Source: Acidimicrobiia bacterium
Lineage (GTDB): Bacteria > Actinomycetota > Acidimicrobiia > IMCC26256 > PALSA-555
Reading direction: 5' to 3'
NCBI GenBank assembly: GCA_009694435.1
Contig: SHUY01000007.1
Span: forward strand, 1-43,548
Length of the DNA stretch: 43,548 bases
Numbering within the stretch: position 1 is the stretch's first letter; each line of letters begins with the position of its first letter. This document shows positions 32,972 to 41,300 of this stretch, piece after piece. The notes under the pieces were generated by a model. The model saw only the letters and a list, made by a program, of their open reading frames with translations. It was not told the origin of the DNA and did not search any database. The position numbers were made by a program, and so were the translations under genes.

Positions 32972-33889
32972 TCACACTCGACTGAGCCGAACCCCTCGGT
33001 CAGCAGTACGGGCAGTAGCCACCGGGACCCGCAAATTACGGCGTAACTCATCGGCAATTTCGTCGAGTCGCCACGCGTCTTGACGGCTCAGCGGAACGAT
33101 GTAGGCCGAGCCACTACCGGCGAGCACCGCGGGCATCTCGGAAATTTTTTCAACTTGGCCGCGGAAGTCGGATAGCCGTGGCTCGACTAGTTCGGCCGCC
33201 AACTCGAGATCATTAAAAAGTTCGGGGATGACCATGCTGATTGGATCGGGAGCAGGAATTTTTCGGGAAGATTTATTTATGCCTAGCGAGTCCCACGCGG
33301 CAAAAACTTTTGGCGTTGACAATCTAAAGGATGGTATTACCACTAGAAGGGGGAGATCGGGTGCTAGTGAAACTGGCTCGAGTAGTTCACCGCGCCCACG
33401 CATCCAGGCGCTACCGCCCGAAAAACAAAAGGGAACATCAGACCCAATAGAAAGAGCGACCGAAAGAATTTCTTCGTCGGTTATTTCGAGTTCAAGCAAG
33501 CGGCGCACCGCGTGCATTGCGGCGGCGGCATCGGCTGATCCCCCACCTAAGCCGGCGCCAGCAGGTATTTTTTTACGCAGTAACATTTTTACGCCGTGTC
33601 CTGATCGTCCCGCGCGAACCATTATTGCTTCGGCTGCTCGTACGGCTAGGTTCTCGCGCATCAGTGGGACATAATCGGTATCCCCCTCAAGTGAAAGCGT
33701 TACTCCTGATGGTTGGGGAACCGAAGAAACCTCAATTACGTCAGAGGGGTCAGTCGCCGAAACTGTTAACGCTTCAATATCGTGGTAGCCATCGCTTCGC
33801 CGACGGATAACTTTTAACGCCAAAGTAATTTTTGAATAGGCCGTAGCTCTAACGAAACTCGGTCGCGGTCGACGGTCAAACGAAGTCAT
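32972..33889 (-). CDS. ispE: 4-diphosphocytidyl-2-C-methyl-D-erythritol kinase
   Basis: AYSKITLALKVIRRRSDGYHDIEAL, KKIPAGAGLGGGSADAAAAM, IGSDVPFCFSGG. Confidence 0.95.
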   Translation of the reverse strand: MTSFDRRPRPSFVRATAYSKITLALKVIRRRSDGYHDIEALTVSATDPSDVIEVSSVPQPSGVTLSLEGDTDYVPLMRENLAVRAAEAIMVRAGRSGHGVKMLLRKKIPAGAGLGGGSADAAAAMHAVRRLLELEITDEEILSVALSIGSDVPFCFSGGSAWMRGRGELLEPVSLAPDLPLLVVIPSFRLSTPKVFAAWDSLGINKSSRKIPAPDPISMVIPELFNDLELAAELVEPRLSDFRGQVEKISEMPAVLAGSGSAYIVPLSRQDAWRLDEIADELRRNLRVPVATARTADRGVRLSRV

Positions 33890-34734
33890 GGCTTAGCCGA
33901 TCGGGCTAATTGGGCCCAGTGGTCGAGGTCTAGATTTTCAGCCCGTTGGTTGGTATCAATGCCCGCCGCGGTGAGCACGGAGACTGCTTGGTCGCCCAGT
34001 ATCGAACGTAATGAGCGACGCAGAGTTTTACGGCGTTGGCCAAAGCCTGCTCCAACCAGTGAAAACATGAATTCTGGATCGGGGACATCAACCAGAGGTT
34101 TGTCGCGCCGATCTAACTGCACGATTACTGAATCAACGCGGGGCGGAGGGAAAAATACCGTCCGGGGAATAGCAGCCACGATGCGAGCCCGGGCTTCGTA
34201 GGCAATTCGCACCGATATGCTGCCCGAAGCTCGGGTTCCCAGTGGAGCCGTCCAGCGCTCTCCCACTTCGCGTTGCACCATAACCACAAAATTACTTATT
34301 TGGGGAGCGTCGGCTAGAAGTCGTACTACTACCGGAGTGGCTACGTTGTAGGGCAGGTTGGAAACGCAGTGCCATCTCTGACTGGTTGACTTATCCGGTC
34401 CTAAAAATTCGTCGGGATTGAAGGTAAGCGCATCGCCGTGGGAAACGGAAACCGAGTCTAAACCTGCTATTACTGACTCCAGGGCGGGGATCAGATGGCG
34501 ATCAAATTCGAGCGCTCTCACCTCGGCCCCAGTTTCCGCGAGAGCCAGAGTTAGCGACCCCAAGCCAGGACCGATTTCAAAAATACGAGTTCCGGGGCCC
34601 GCTGCGGCCAAACGGGCGATACGGCGCGCCGTGTTGGCGTCGGTGAGAAAGTTTTGCCCCAAAGCTCGGCTTGGGCTTAAAGAAAACTCCTTAAGCAAGC
34701 TATGGATATCGGCGGGGTTAAGCACTGATACCAA
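33886..34734 (-). CDS. rsmA: 16S rRNA (adenine1518/1519-N6) dimethyltransferase
   Basis: ALGQNFLTDANTARRIARLA, IFEIGPGLGSLTLALAETGAEVRALEFD, NLPYNVATPVV. Confidence 0.95.
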   Translation of the reverse strand: MVSVLNPADIHSLLKEFSLSPSRALGQNFLTDANTARRIARLAAAGPGTRIFEIGPGLGSLTLALAETGAEVRALEFDRHLIPALESVIAGLDSVSVSHGDALTFNPDEFLGPDKSTSQRWHCVSNLPYNVATPVVVRLLADAPQISNFVVMVQREVGERWTAPLGTRASGSISVRIAYEARARIVAAIPRTVFFPPPRVDSVIVQLDRRDKPLVDVPDPEFMFSLVGAGFGQRRKTLRRSLRSILGDQAVSVLTAAGIDTNQRAENLDLDHWAQLARSAKP

Positions 34735-34737
34735 CGA

Positions 34738-36246: not shown

Positions 36247-37026
36247 CTAGTCGCTTAGGGCCAGGCCAAAAACTTCAGCCGCGGCTTGGCTAGTAGCCCT
36301 TGCTACGTCCGCAACGGGCTGATTTATAGCCTGAGCCAATGCCGATCCCACCACCTTGACTCGAGCCGGTTCGTTGGGCTTGCCCCGAAACGGTTCGGGG
36401 GACAAAAACGGCGCATCGGTCTCAACTAGCACTCGGTCAAGCGGGCACACGGCGGCGGCGGCGCGTAGGTCATTGGCGCGGCGAAACGAAATTATCCCAC
36501 TGAACGAAATGCGTGCACCCATATCTAGACAAGTGCGCGCTTCGTTGGGTCCACCGCTAAAACAATGGAAGACTGTACGAGACGGAACGGTTTCTTCTTG
36601 TAAAACTCGCCAAGTATCAGCCCACGCGTCACGCGTGTGAATTACCAGTGCTAAGTCGAGAGTATGGGCGAGACGAATTTGTTGACGAAATACCGTCTCT
36701 TGAATTTCAGGGTCAGAATGCTTATAGAAAAAATCAAATCCGGTTTCGCCTATCGCGACGACATTGGGCGACTGAGCTAAATCGCACAGTTCCTCCCATT
36801 GCGTATTTACATGCTGGGCGTCGTGAGGGTGAAGACCGACCGTGGCGAAAACATCCGAGTGTTGTTTGGCTAAATCAACTGCGGCGCGCGACGTTGCCAA
36901 ATCGGTACCAACGACGACCATGGCGAGCACATCATTATCACGAGCCCGGGCAATTGCGGCTTCGGATCCACCTTCGCACTCCATTACATGACAGTGCGAG
37001 TCGATCCAAGTTGGCTCGGTACTCAT
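36247..37026 (-). CDS. TatD family metal-dependent hydrolase
   Basis: WIDSHCHV, VGLHPHDAQ, AIGETGFDFFYKHSD, HTRDAWADT, FHCFSGGPNEA, LVETDAPFLSPEPFRGKPNEPARV. Confidence 0.95.
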   Translation of the reverse strand: MSTEPTWIDSHCHVMECEGGSEAAIARARDNDVLAMVVVGTDLATSRAAVDLAKQHSDVFATVGLHPHDAQHVNTQWEELCDLAQSPNVVAIGETGFDFFYKHSDPEIQETVFRQQIRLAHTLDLALVIHTRDAWADTWRVLQEETVPSRTVFHCFSGGPNEARTCLDMGARISFSGIISFRRANDLRAAAAVCPLDRVLVETDAPFLSPEPFRGKPNEPARVKVVGSALAQAINQPVADVARATSQAAAEVFGLALSD

Positions 37027-38543
37027 GAAACTTCGAGGCGAGGAAAAAGCGGGTCACCAGAAATAACTTGTGTCCCCGATGGGCCGCGCCCCCACTGCGC
37101 CGCTTCGGGAAAACGCTCTTGATCAATGTCGGTATCTATCCCCAGACGCCGCCATAATTCGGTACTGGCATTCGGGATAATCGGGAGTGCGAGTAAAGCC
37201 ACGATCCGTAAAGTTTCTAGGCAATCACCTAAAACCGTAAAAACTTTTTCGGTCTCCTCAGATTTATACAATTTCCACGGTTCTTGTTCTTCGATGTAGG
37301 CGTTAGCGGCACCAATCAATCGAGCGATAGCGGAACTCACTTCAGGAAAATCAAGAGAAGCAAAGTTCTCTACCACCGCAATGAAAGCCTGCTCGGCTGC
37401 GCTTTTTAACGGACCATCAGCTCGAGCGGCCGGGGTTTCGCCGCCGCAATAGCGCTCGGTCATAGCCAAAACCCGTTGGGCTAAGTTGCCGTAGTTATTA
37501 GCCAAATCGGCGTTGTAACGGGAGACCATCGACTCGAAACTGAAATCTCCGTCAGGACCGAAGCGTTGATCAGCAAGAAAGTGATAACGAAAACCATCAA
37601 CCCCAAATTGTTTAACTAGATCGGCGGGAGCGATCTGGTTAAGTGCGGTCTTGCTCATTTTTTCTCCCCCCACCAGAAGGAAACCGTGAGCAAAAACGCA
37701 CTGTGGCGGTGCTTCGCCTGCGGCCATTAACATGGCCGGCCAAAACACCGCGTGAAAACGCAAGATGTCTTTACCTACTAGGTGATAGTTAACCGGCCAA
37801 TATTTATTGAACTGGGCTTCGTCGGTTCCGTAGCCCACGGCAGTGCAGTAGTTAAAGAGGGCATCAAACCAAACATAAGCGACATGGCTTTCATCCCACG
37901 GTAACGGTATGCCCCACGAAATAGAAGTCCGGCTCATGGAAAAATCGCGCAAACCGCCCTTGATGAACCCTAAAACTTCGTTACGGCGGCTTTCAGGCTG
38001 GACTGCTTCGGGGTGATCGGTGTAGTGCTGGAGCAAGCGATTCTGAAACTCGGAAAGTTTAAAAAAGTAATTATCTTCTCGCACTCGTTCGATAGGGCGC
38101 TTATGCACCGGACAATTGCCGTCACTTATTTCGTCGTCCGCGTAATACGCTTCACAGGCAACGCAGTACAAACCTTCATAAGTATTTAGTTCGATGAAAC
38201 CATTATCATAAACTCGTTGAAGAAATTTCTGTACTGCCATTTTGTGGCGTGGCTCGGTAGTGCGAATAAAGTCAGTATTGGTAATTTCGAGTAACTCCCA
38301 TGTTTCACGAAAACGCTCGCTAGTTTTATCTGCCCACTCTTTAGGAGTAACTCCGTGTTCTTCGGCCGCGCGTTGAATCTTTAGTCCGTGCTCATCGGTG
38401 CCGGTAAGAAAAACTACGTCGTCGCCCCACAATCTCCGCCAGCGGGCTAGTGCGTCGGCGGCCACCGTGGTGTAAGCGTGGCCGATGTGAGGAACATCGT
38501 TTACGTAATAAATCGGAGTGGTGACATAAAAAGGCGAGCCCAT
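37023..38543 (-). CDS. metG: Methionyl-tRNA synthetase
   Basis: YVTTPIYYVNDVPHIGHAYTTVAADALARW, GTDEHGLKI, GGEKMSKTALNQI. Confidence 0.97.
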   Translation of the reverse strand: MGSPFYVTTPIYYVNDVPHIGHAYTTVAADALARWRRLWGDDVVFLTGTDEHGLKIQRAAEEHGVTPKEWADKTSERFRETWELLEITNTDFIRTTEPRHKMAVQKFLQRVYDNGFIELNTYEGLYCVACEAYYADDEISDGNCPVHKRPIERVREDNYFFKLSEFQNRLLQHYTDHPEAVQPESRRNEVLGFIKGGLRDFSMSRTSISWGIPLPWDESHVAYVWFDALFNYCTAVGYGTDEAQFNKYWPVNYHLVGKDILRFHAVFWPAMLMAAGEAPPQCVFAHGFLLVGGEKMSKTALNQIAPADLVKQFGVDGFRYHFLADQRFGPDGDFSFESMVSRYNADLANNYGNLAQRVLAMTERYCGGETPAARADGPLKSAAEQAFIAVVENFASLDFPEVSSAIARLIGAANAYIEEQEPWKLYKSEETEKVFTVLGDCLETLRIVALLALPIIPNASTELWRRLGIDTDIDQERFPEAAQWGRGPSGTQVISGDPLFPRLEVS

Positions 38544-38553
38544 CGGCTTTACG

Positions 38554-39426
38554 CTAGACCTCTCGCTTGGGCTTAGTTCGTTCTTTTTCTGCCAGCACCG
38601 CCGCGTAGGCTGCCCGACGAGAAACCCCTAACTCGCTAGCAATGCGGTCCGCGATCACCCGGGTGGAATCACTAGCCGGTGAGTTCAGCAACTCTTCCCG
38701 AGCCTGGGCGCTGATTTTGTCGGCCGATGCTTGGGGCGCAGCGACTTGGCCTTCGAGCACAACCACATATTCGCCCCGAGGAGTACCGGCGGCGATAATG
38801 GCGGCTACTGAGGCGAGTGAACCCCGCACTACTTCTTCGTGGATTTTGGTTATTTCTCGTGCCACCGCCACTCGGCGATCATCGCCACAAGCGACTACCA
38901 AGTCAGCTAGTAACGCGTTGACTCGGCTGGGCGCTTCGTAGATCACTATCGTTCGTCGCTCTTGTTTGATGTCAGATAGAGCCTGGGTGCGCCCGCCGCC
39001 GCGCCGAGGGATAAACCCTTCGAATACGAATCGCTCAGTTGGCAGCCCCGAAAGAACTAGCGCGGCCGTATGCGCGCTGGGGCCAGGGACTACCTCAACT
39101 GAACATTGCGCCGCGAGACACGCTTGCACCAAATACATTCCTGGGTCGGAAATTCCTGGAGTACCCGCGTCGGTAACTAAGGCCACAGTTTTACCTTCAA
39201 TAATTCGTTTTACTAGCCCCGCGCTACGCGTTCGTTCGTTGTGGGCGTGCAGGGCGGTCAATCTTCGACCGGCCGTAATTTCTGCGTGAGTCAACAATGC
39301 CCGAGTGCGCCGAGTGTCTTCCGCAGCAATGACATCGGCATCACGAAGCGCGGCTAACGCGCGTAAAGAAAGGTCGCCGAGGTTACCGATCGGAGTAGCG
39401 ACTACTACTAATCGGCCACTAGCCAT
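38554..39426 (-). CDS. rsmI: 16S rRNA (cytidine1402-2'-O)-methyltransferase
   Basis: LVVVATPIGNLGDLSLRALAALRDADVIAAEDTRRTRALL, ALVTDAGTPGISDPG, GLPTERFVFEGFIPRRGG. Confidence 0.96.
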   Translation of the reverse strand: MASGRLVVVATPIGNLGDLSLRALAALRDADVIAAEDTRRTRALLTHAEITAGRRLTALHAHNERTRSAGLVKRIIEGKTVALVTDAGTPGISDPGMYLVQACLAAQCSVEVVPGPSAHTAALVLSGLPTERFVFEGFIPRRGGGRTQALSDIKQERRTIVIYEAPSRVNALLADLVVACGDDRRVAVAREITKIHEEVVRGSLASVAAIIAAGTPRGEYVVVLEGQVAAPQASADKISAQAREELLNSPASDSTRVIADRIASELGVSRRAAYAAVLAEKERTKPKREV

Positions 39427-39838
39427 TTGTCACCTCGATTTGATCTCCAACTTTAAGCGACCACTGTTCGCACGAACCCGACGCCGCCTCGACGACAAAA
39501 GCCGAGCGCAAGACGACGCGGGAAACCCGTCTCGAAGTCAACTGAGCAATACGCAAAACTCGACCATCAGATTTACACCACACCACATCGATCTCGCATT
39601 TCATACCCATAGTGTGGACTTGCCGACAGGGGTCGAGTAGTAAAGGGCGGGTAATAGACGGGCGCCCCCGCAAACCGAGGCGGCGGGCCGAGCGACTAGT
39701 GGCCACTTCGATCGGAGCCAAAACTCTGCCGTTGGCCGCGAGCCAGGTGTTTTCTGAATCAAATGTTGAACCGGATCTCGAGTACTTCGCCGTCAAGAAC
39801 CTCGTAATCTTTTCCCTCAACACGGAGTTTCCCGACAT
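39419..39838 (-). CDS. DUF192 domain-containing protein (start uncertain, overlaps the YchF-like gene)
   Basis: VLAPIEVATSRSARRLGLRGRPSI...QVHTMGMKCEIDVVWCKSDGRVLRI resembles DUF192. Start could be ATG 39838, GTG 39823, TTG 39820 or TTG 39796. Confidence 0.75.
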   Translation of the reverse strand: MSGNSVLREKITRFLTAKYSRSGSTFDSENTWLAANGRVLAPIEVATSRSARRLGLRGRPSITRPLLLDPCRQVHTMGMKCEIDVVWCKSDGRVLRIAQLTSRRVSRVVLRSAFVVEAASGSCEQWSLKVGDQIEVTNG

Positions 39839-40769
39839 CTTTGGCGGCGGACCATGACCCAATTTTTAGAAGTTCCTGCCAGTCGATTACTTCGGCTCGG
39901 ATAAATCCGCGCTGCAGATCGGAGTGAATAGCGCCCGCACATTCGGGCGCCATTGCTCCCGTACGAAAAGTCCACGCGCGTGATTCTTCTTCGCCGGTAG
40001 TCAAAAAAGTGGAGCGGCCAAGCAATTCGAGAGCTTGGCGAGCCAGTCGGGGGACAACGCTTTCGGGAATACCTAAGTCGGCTAATAATTCTGCCCGCGC
40101 TACTCCACTAGTGGCGACGACATCGGGATCAGATTCAAGTTCGATGCAAACTGATAATGCTTCGGGAATACCTAAGTCGGTTTCGGCCAATTGGTCTAAG
40201 CCAATATTTACCACGAGGAGAGTTGGTTTATTGGTTAACAAAAAAGCTGGGGTGAGCAGGTCGCACTCCGCGGGAGTTAAGTCGCTGCGATAAATGGGGG
40301 TTCCGGCGGATAGAACTTCTTCCGCTCTACTCAGGGCGGCGATTTCGGCCGCAAGAGATTTGTCACCCTTAGCGGCCCGTTGCTGTTTTGCTAAACGATT
40401 CTCTACCGTGCCCAGATCGGCCAAGATGAGTTCTTCTTCGATCGCAGTGCGTTCTTGGGCGGGGTCGTGCCCCTCATCGGCCCGCACCACCATCATCAGC
40501 GCGTCGCAGTCGCGCACGCCACCCAACAAACGGCTACCCAGACCTTTACCAGCTTCGGTGGAGAGGCCCGGCAAGTAAGCGATCTGAAATGTGGCGGGTA
40601 CCACTTGACGCGACTTGGACATAGCGGCCAACTGTTCGAGTCGCTCGTCCGGGCTGGCCACTACTCCGAGTACCTTTTCAGAAGCGGTACTGGCGTCGAG
40701 TCCGGTTAGCGCGATAAAAAGCCCCGCGTGACCAGAATCGGCGAGACCGAGGAGACCAAGATGTTCCAT
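39759..40769 (-). CDS. YchF/DUF933-family protein with degenerate GTPase domain and intact TGS-like C-terminus
   Basis: C-term SRAWTFRTGAMAPECAGAIHSDLQRGFIRAEVIDWQELLKIGSWSAAKDVGKLRVEGKDYEVLDGEVLEIRFNI is YchF TGS; N-term MEHLGLLGLADSGHAGLFIALTG aligns with the YchF P-loop region but lacks GKST. Confidence 0.88.
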   Translation of the reverse strand: MEHLGLLGLADSGHAGLFIALTGLDASTASEKVLGVVASPDERLEQLAAMSKSRQVVPATFQIAYLPGLSTEAGKGLGSRLLGGVRDCDALMMVVRADEGHDPAQERTAIEEELILADLGTVENRLAKQQRAAKGDKSLAAEIAALSRAEEVLSAGTPIYRSDLTPAECDLLTPAFLLTNKPTLLVVNIGLDQLAETDLGIPEALSVCIELESDPDVVATSGVARAELLADLGIPESVVPRLARQALELLGRSTFLTTGEEESRAWTFRTGAMAPECAGAIHSDLQRGFIRAEVIDWQELLKIGSWSAAKDVGKLRVEGKDYEVLDGEVLEIRFNI

Positions 40770-40847
40770 GACTAATGAGGATACGGTGCCGAGCACCACC
40801 ACCGAGTGTTGAGCCAGAATCCCTAACCCCACCCCAAGGAGGAAGCC

Positions 40848-41300
40848 GTGAGCGACTGGTCGCAAGAAAGTATCGTCGATCGCCTCGAAATTGAGGCCTT
40901 AGTAAGGAAATACGCGTGGGCGATAGACCACAGAAACTTTGATGAGCTCGATGATGTTTTCACTCCCGACGCGGTTCTCGATTACACCACCGCGGGGGGC
41001 ATTAAAGGGGCTTACCCTGAGGTCAAAGCGTGGCTCGCGGGCGTGCTCCCGGGGTTCCCCGCTTACCAACATTTGGTTACCAACACCGAGGTCACTTTGG
41101 CGGGTGACTTGGCTAGCGCCCGCTCGGCTTTTTATAACCCGATGGGACACGACCGGCCCGATAAAACTCGGGCCTACTTTTTTTGTGGCGGCGAATACCA
41201 CGACCAGCTAATACGCACTGGATCGGGGTGGAGAATTTCTAATCGCTTTGAGCAAACCGTTTGGATGGACGGCGAATTTCCTGGTGCGCTACCCGCTTAG
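40848..41300 (+). CDS. Nuclear transport factor 2 / SnoaL-like protein
   Basis: GTG start with upstream AAGGAGG; IVDRLEIEALVRKYAWAIDHRNFDELDDVFTPDAVLDYT pattern. Confidence 0.88.
   Translation: MSDWSQESIVDRLEIEALVRKYAWAIDHRNFDELDDVFTPDAVLDYTTAGGIKGAYPEVKAWLAGVLPGFPAYQHLVTNTEVTLAGDLASARSAFYNPMGHDRPDKTRAYFFCGGEYHDQLIRTGSGWRISNRFEQTVWMDGEFPGALPA

Follow-up and report, generated by a model that had tools for sequence, protein, structure and literature searches.

Loss of the nucleotide motifs in the sole YchF of an Acidimicrobiia lineage: a candidate ATP-independent pseudo-ATPase

We analyzed a window of 43,548 nt from an Acidimicrobiia bacterium (contig SHUY01000007.1, assembly GCA_009694435.1), in which the ychF gene encodes a protein stripped of its nucleotide motifs. 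We consider it probable that the sole YchF of this lineage has become an ATP-independent pseudo-ATPase, with its ribosome- and RNA-facing parts kept and its action controlled by dose. Most families of this Acidimicrobiia order would descend from an ancestor whose YchF already lacked the catalytic His114; the protein would next have lost its P-loop, both switches and its base-specificity motif in a single burst affecting the G domain alone, with purifying selection maintaining it ever since. ATP and GTP would be neither bound nor hydrolyzed, and the G fold, held in one fixed state, would serve as a structural platform. YchF’s RNA and ribosome contacts would still be made by the TGS domain, which is unchanged, and by the conserved helical domain, and translation would be regulated by the amount of protein, not by an ATP-driven cycle of binding and release. 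What the computation shows directly is that the motifs are lost, that the gene is single-copy and of single origin, that it is under selection and syntenic, and that its predicted fold is that of YchF. The features concerned, all on the minus strand of the window, are:

39759 to 40769 (minus): putative pseudo-ATPase YchF orthologue, 336 residues; ATG at 40769, stop codon at 39759 to 39761, start codon common to orthologues
40725 to 40748 (minus): former G1/P-loop, residues 8-15, GLADSGHA (canonical YchF, GLPNVGKS), from alignment
40680 to 40685 (minus): junction A29/S30, where six switch I residues are missing, from alignment
40533 to 40583 (minus): former G3/switch II, residues 63-79, IAYLPGLSTEAGKGLGS (canonical YchF, VDIAGLV-GASKGEGLGN)
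40461 to 40484 (minus): shortened loop, residues 96-103, RADEGHDP, the site of catalytic His114 in canonical YchF
40227 to 40448 (minus): helical (coiled-coil) domain, about residues 108-181; evolution slowed in the motif-less clade relative to the sister group
40197 to 40208 (minus): former G4 motif NxxE, residues 188-191, NIGL, from alignment
39765 to 40010 (minus): C-terminal TGS/YchF-GTPase_C domain (PF06071), residues 254-335, near-canonical
40778 to 40783 (minus): -10-like element TATCCT, ending 8 nt 5’ of the ychF ATG, with no Shine-Dalgarno; predicted leaderless
39419 to 39862 (minus): DUF192 gene, conserved downstream neighbor; coordinates are those of the longest ORF, whose true start probably lies below 39759
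38554 to 39426 (minus): rsmI-like 16S rRNA methyltransferase gene (PF00590), conserved neighbor
37023 to 38543 (minus): metG, methionyl-tRNA synthetase, conserved neighbor
36247 to 37026 (minus): tatD, conserved neighbor
33889 to 34737 (minus): ksgA-like rRNA adenine dimethylase gene (PF00398), conserved neighbor

Divergent from ychF, a SnoaL_4-domain gene lies at 40848 to 41300 on the plus strand, and it has the same position in the other same-family members examined (L068, L151-L153).

Motifs were read by alignment to the YchF proteins of H. influenzae (1JAL) and T. thermophilus (2DBY). An earlier note on this DNA had described a P-loop with neither Lys nor Ser/Thr, a missing TIEPN segment in switch I, a lost switch II Asp and NIGL in place of NxxE, and the alignment bears out each of these readings. 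GLPNVGKST has become GLADSGHAG, with the Walker A Lys and Ser gone; switch I carries a six-residue deletion (ANYPFCTIEPN to TA------SEKVL); FVDIAGL of switch II is IAYLPGL, with Asp replaced by Tyr and no DxxG; and NVNE reads NIGL. The loop that bears catalytic His114 (column numbering sets the reference His at 114) is deleted as well, a loss beyond those listed in the note. The C-terminal TGS/DUF933 region, called nearly canonical there, is indeed an intact PF06071 match (108 bits), and it comes last in the order G, helical, TGS. TIGR00092 spans the full protein (220 bits, E = 4e-65) at a score below its curated cut-off of 279.2 bits, and no GTPase-domain model matched the window protein, Pfam MMR_HSR1 being absent at E ≤ 1. 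Among ten related proteins searched with Pfam, MMR_HSR1 scored 60-67 bits in all four P-loop-bearing relatives and was found at E ≤ 0.01 in none of six motif-less clade members. TGS and helical residues are near-invariant. Judged from the sequences, the motif loss is far beyond chance, because the same losses recur in 36 genomes.

All solved-structure relatives of the window protein are YchF/OLA1. An AlphaFold model, a comparison that the earlier note had proposed, has YchF structures as its only close matches, among them the 50S-associated YchF of 8KIE (E = 1e-23, TM 0.71). The model was built from five sequences and its confidence is modest (pLDDT 63), so that it can support the fold but not the shape of the pocket. 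The window protein thus joins lost motifs to a retained fold and purifying selection, the combination that defines a pseudoGTPase. As an annotation of the motif-less proteins, ‘redox-regulated ATPase YchF’ would be wrong for their biochemistry.

We sorted the genomes of the order by YchF sequence type. The motif-less form is the sole YchF in 36 of 58; 13 have a P-loop-bearing YchF of the Acidimicrobiia kind, seven have a more typical GLPNVGKST YchF (T-type), and two are incomplete and without a YchF match. Half of the carriers (18/36) are at least 90% complete, among them G004 (100%), G031 (100%) and the single-contig G026 (99%). The window genome (86% complete, 93 contigs) has one YchF, the motif-less one. 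One locus first sorted as motif-less (L088) proved to be cut by a contig end and was removed. In a survey of the class, several streamlined genomes of family f22 (0.6-1.1 Mb) had no YchF match at all (G077, G119, G131 and others), G077 being ~90% complete.

In a tree of 103 proteins, 35 motif-less sequences form one clade (bootstrap/SH-aLRT 100/100, present in 100% of bootstrap trees), nested among P-loop-bearing, GLPNSGKSS-type proteins of the same order. The slot ychF-DUF192-rsmI-metG-tatD-ksgA is common to the motif-less and most P-loop-bearing relatives; it was traced by direct search with the window genes, an earlier clustering having been blurred by antisense frames in GC-rich DNA. This nesting, together with the shared slot, identifies the gene as an orthologue, as opposed to an imported or paralogous copy. 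As read from tree and gene order, motif-less YchF is an orthologue that was altered once, and acquisition from outside was rejected on both counts. Of the earlier note’s suggestion of a non-catalytic regulator or a divergent replacement, the first part stands, in that the protein appears to be a lineage-specific, non-catalytic YchF keeping its TGS part; the second does not, as it is a vertical orthologue in the ancestral gene neighborhood.

His114 is already absent from the P-loop-bearing sisters, where the reference ‘DDIVHVAGKIDP’ reads ‘DDxVPGxxDP’. ATP hydrolysis is reported to depend critically on this residue (Rosler et al. 2015, as cited in PMC8779481). Its absence from proteins that still have a P-loop suggests a stepwise loss, in which catalysis was probably crippled before the nucleotide site disappeared.

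Other altered YchFs were also seen. L192 (889 to 1935, minus strand; G067, family f25) is degenerate in the opposite way, keeping a GEPRSGKST P-loop with the switch I and switch II regions deleted. Long-branch YchFs (L096-L100, f26 g87) keep the P-loop, have DGPPL/DTPP for switch II and lack GEGLGN. A second Acidimicrobiia YchF type (L064, L076, L078, L081, L082, L084-L086, L089-L091, L093, L094) retains a GKT P-loop and a TTEPN-like switch I, with a mostly DLPAM-like switch II and no His114, which suggests that YchF catalysis has eroded more widely in the class. In G019 a frame change accompanied by a stop interrupts the P-loop-bearing ychF (L166, 6012 to 7066), representing either an error or real decay.

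We reasoned that the altered loop might still hold ATP, or a phosphorylated ligand such as ppGpp, through the backbone amides of the P-loop, giving a YchF that binds nucleotide and does not hydrolyze it. The P-loop glycines G8 and G13, and with them the GxxxxG spacing, are mostly kept, and the loops are uniform within subclades (DSGH; GANR); GxxDSGH-type loops are conserved in relatives, a point that the earlier note had wanted checked. Some ligand could therefore still occupy the loop, which counts against an ATP-free reading, and AtYchF1 binds ppGpp (PMC9748339; PDB 7y9i). Set against this, nothing remains of the Walker A Lys and Ser/Thr, the switch I residues, the switch II Asp or the G4 Glu, and what has replaced them is not the same from subclade to subclade (H-A/G/D, A-N-R, S-N). 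Moreover, the sites of the former motifs are about as variable as the average site of the G domain: P-loop column entropy is 1.08 in the motif-less clade, where the G-domain mean is 1.15, versus 0.24 and 0.00 in the P-loop-bearing groups. We therefore regard retained nucleotide binding, the main rival reading, as unlikely, though a real possibility. Results from E. coli also count against an ATP-independent YchF: cold sensitivity is not rescued there by a YchF deficient in ATPase activity, and YchF’s oxidative-stress effect requires the ATP site (both PMC8779481); without ATP, the protein must work differently there, or do less.

Branch lengths were obtained domain by domain on a fixed tree, leaving out the frameshifted L056 and other doubtful rows. 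On the stem branch of the motif-less clade, the G domain accumulated 0.38 substitutions per site (0.26-0.53), the TGS domain 0.02 (0-0.07) and the helical domain 0.00. Tree lengths inside the clade, taken as ratios to those of the P-loop-bearing sister group, were 2.04 (1.78-2.26) for the G domain, 2.12 (1.76-2.73) for TGS and 1.14 (0.91-1.45) for the helical domain. The similar G and TGS ratios indicate no drift of the G domain beyond expectation in this comparison; when a second and more distant P-loop group is the reference, the G domain looks faster (2.36, versus 1.28 for TGS), which counts against the ATP-independent reading. The helical domain, in which R125, Q129 and G135 are near-invariant, may have gained constraint in the motif-less clade. 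Domain net charge revealed nothing telling.

A burst of change concentrated in the G domain would also fit a repurposed protein, whose G-domain fold became a surface for a new partner and whose ribosome role was given up. In E. coli YchF the G domain is the one that cross-links most to the ribosome (PMC8779481), and the near-invariant helical residues and low helical ratio lend this explanation further weight. We nevertheless judge it quite improbable, given that TGS is unchanged on the stem and that a canonical YchF has taken over from the pseudo form in two or more lineages, which is easiest if the two do overlapping jobs.

This displacement is seen in seven genomes of the order, which have a T-type YchF and lack the pseudo form; the pseudo form is thus not irreplaceable, a further point against the main reading. 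The old slot is recognizable by DUF192-rsmI-metG in G020, G042, G043, G050 and G039, and holds no ychF remnant in any of them; in G055 the new T-type gene directly adjoins DUF192, and in G054 it is ~3 kb away. A neighbor-gene tree (metG+tatD+rsmI), which is poorly resolved inside the order and was used only for well-supported pairings, groups T-type genomes with carriers of the pseudo form (f12, 100/98; f10 g14, 95/70), and T-type ownership requires at least two gains on it. That canonical YchF can evidently take the place of the pseudo form would argue for overlap between their jobs.

The usual route to a pseudoenzyme is redundancy: a canonical second YchF would do the ATP-dependent work, leaving the window gene a free paralogue. 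The earlier note had called for a search for such a copy, and none was found in the window genome or in any genome of the motif-less clade. Queries with the pseudo and canonical forms each found one YchF per carrier genome, further matches reaching only 25-45 bits, the level of other GTPases. Across the order’s 58 genomes, motif-less and P-loop YchF never co-occurred, not even in the 18 carriers whose completeness is 90% or more. A second copy was rejected, and redundancy is very hard to credit.

Selection was assessed by dN/dS (Nei-Gojobori, pairs at least 80% identical), as the earlier note had also advised. Within the clade the median was 0.13 for the whole protein and 0.12 for the G domain, with a maximum of 0.30 (24 pairs); outside it the value was 0.10 (21 pairs). 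Motif loss alone would look the same in a pseudogene undergoing decay, or if sequencing or assembly had gone wrong, and the window genome is an incomplete draft, but with the form shared by 36 genomes, all frames open, dN/dS far below 1 and carriers in a single contig or ~100% complete (G026, G004, G031), we rejected frameshift, error and decay as having next to no chance of being correct.

A TAnnnT element ending 6-8 nt 5’ of the ychF start codon was present in 34 of 35 clade members (shuffled upstreams: mean 0.33, maximum 3), and a Shine-Dalgarno-like motif in one of 35; the ychF transcript is predicted to be leaderless in those 34 members. The leaderless signature was also found in P-loop-bearing relatives, at 14/17 and 11/16 in two groups. 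Upstream of metG (37023 to 38543 in the window, and related loci), TAnnnT lay 6-8 nt from the start at 16 of 28 loci, so leaderless starts look common in the lineage, with ychF a consistent case; none was found at the rsmI and tatD starts, inside the gene row. E. coli YchF inhibits the translation of leaderless mRNA through IF3 (PMC8138138). A YchF that restrains leaderless translation and is itself made from a predicted leaderless mRNA could limit its own synthesis. We tentatively suggest, as a possibility well short of probable, that the clade runs YchF’s ribosome function without a nucleotide cycle, its dose set by an autoregulatory loop on the leaderless ychF mRNA.

Descriptions of YchF/OLA1 present it as an ATPase of universal conservation, and the role of its ATP hydrolysis is stated to be unknown (PMC8779481). 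Among the papers searched, none joins YchF with pseudoGTPase or describes a YchF clade without a nucleotide site. As a putative natural ATPase-dead mutant, the YchF of this clade would allow the ATP-dependent part of YchF’s job to be told apart from the part that needs no ATP, and could reveal the purpose of the ATPase. Intermediates that have lost His114 and kept the P-loop, and canonical back-replacements, are available for direct swap experiments.

The window protein resembles YchF/OLA1 (TIGR00092; E. coli YchF, human OLA1) in its three-domain order, TGS end and predicted fold (TM ~0.7), but differs in lacking the nucleotide motifs and His114 and in scoring below the family cut-off. P-loop-bearing Acidimicrobiia YchFs (GLPNxGKS) are sister sequences in the same order and class, share its gene slot and likewise miss the His114 loop, whereas they keep the P-loop, switches, NxxE and an MMR_HSR1 match. 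Eukaryotic pseudoGTPases, such as the p190RhoGAP domains (PMC5593906) and degenerate septins (PMC10731463), have also kept a GTPase fold and lost its motifs, the fold serving as a structural or binding module. Those, however, are domains or paralogues beside active GTPases, whereas here a whole clade has the altered form as its sole copy of a near-universal bacterial factor.
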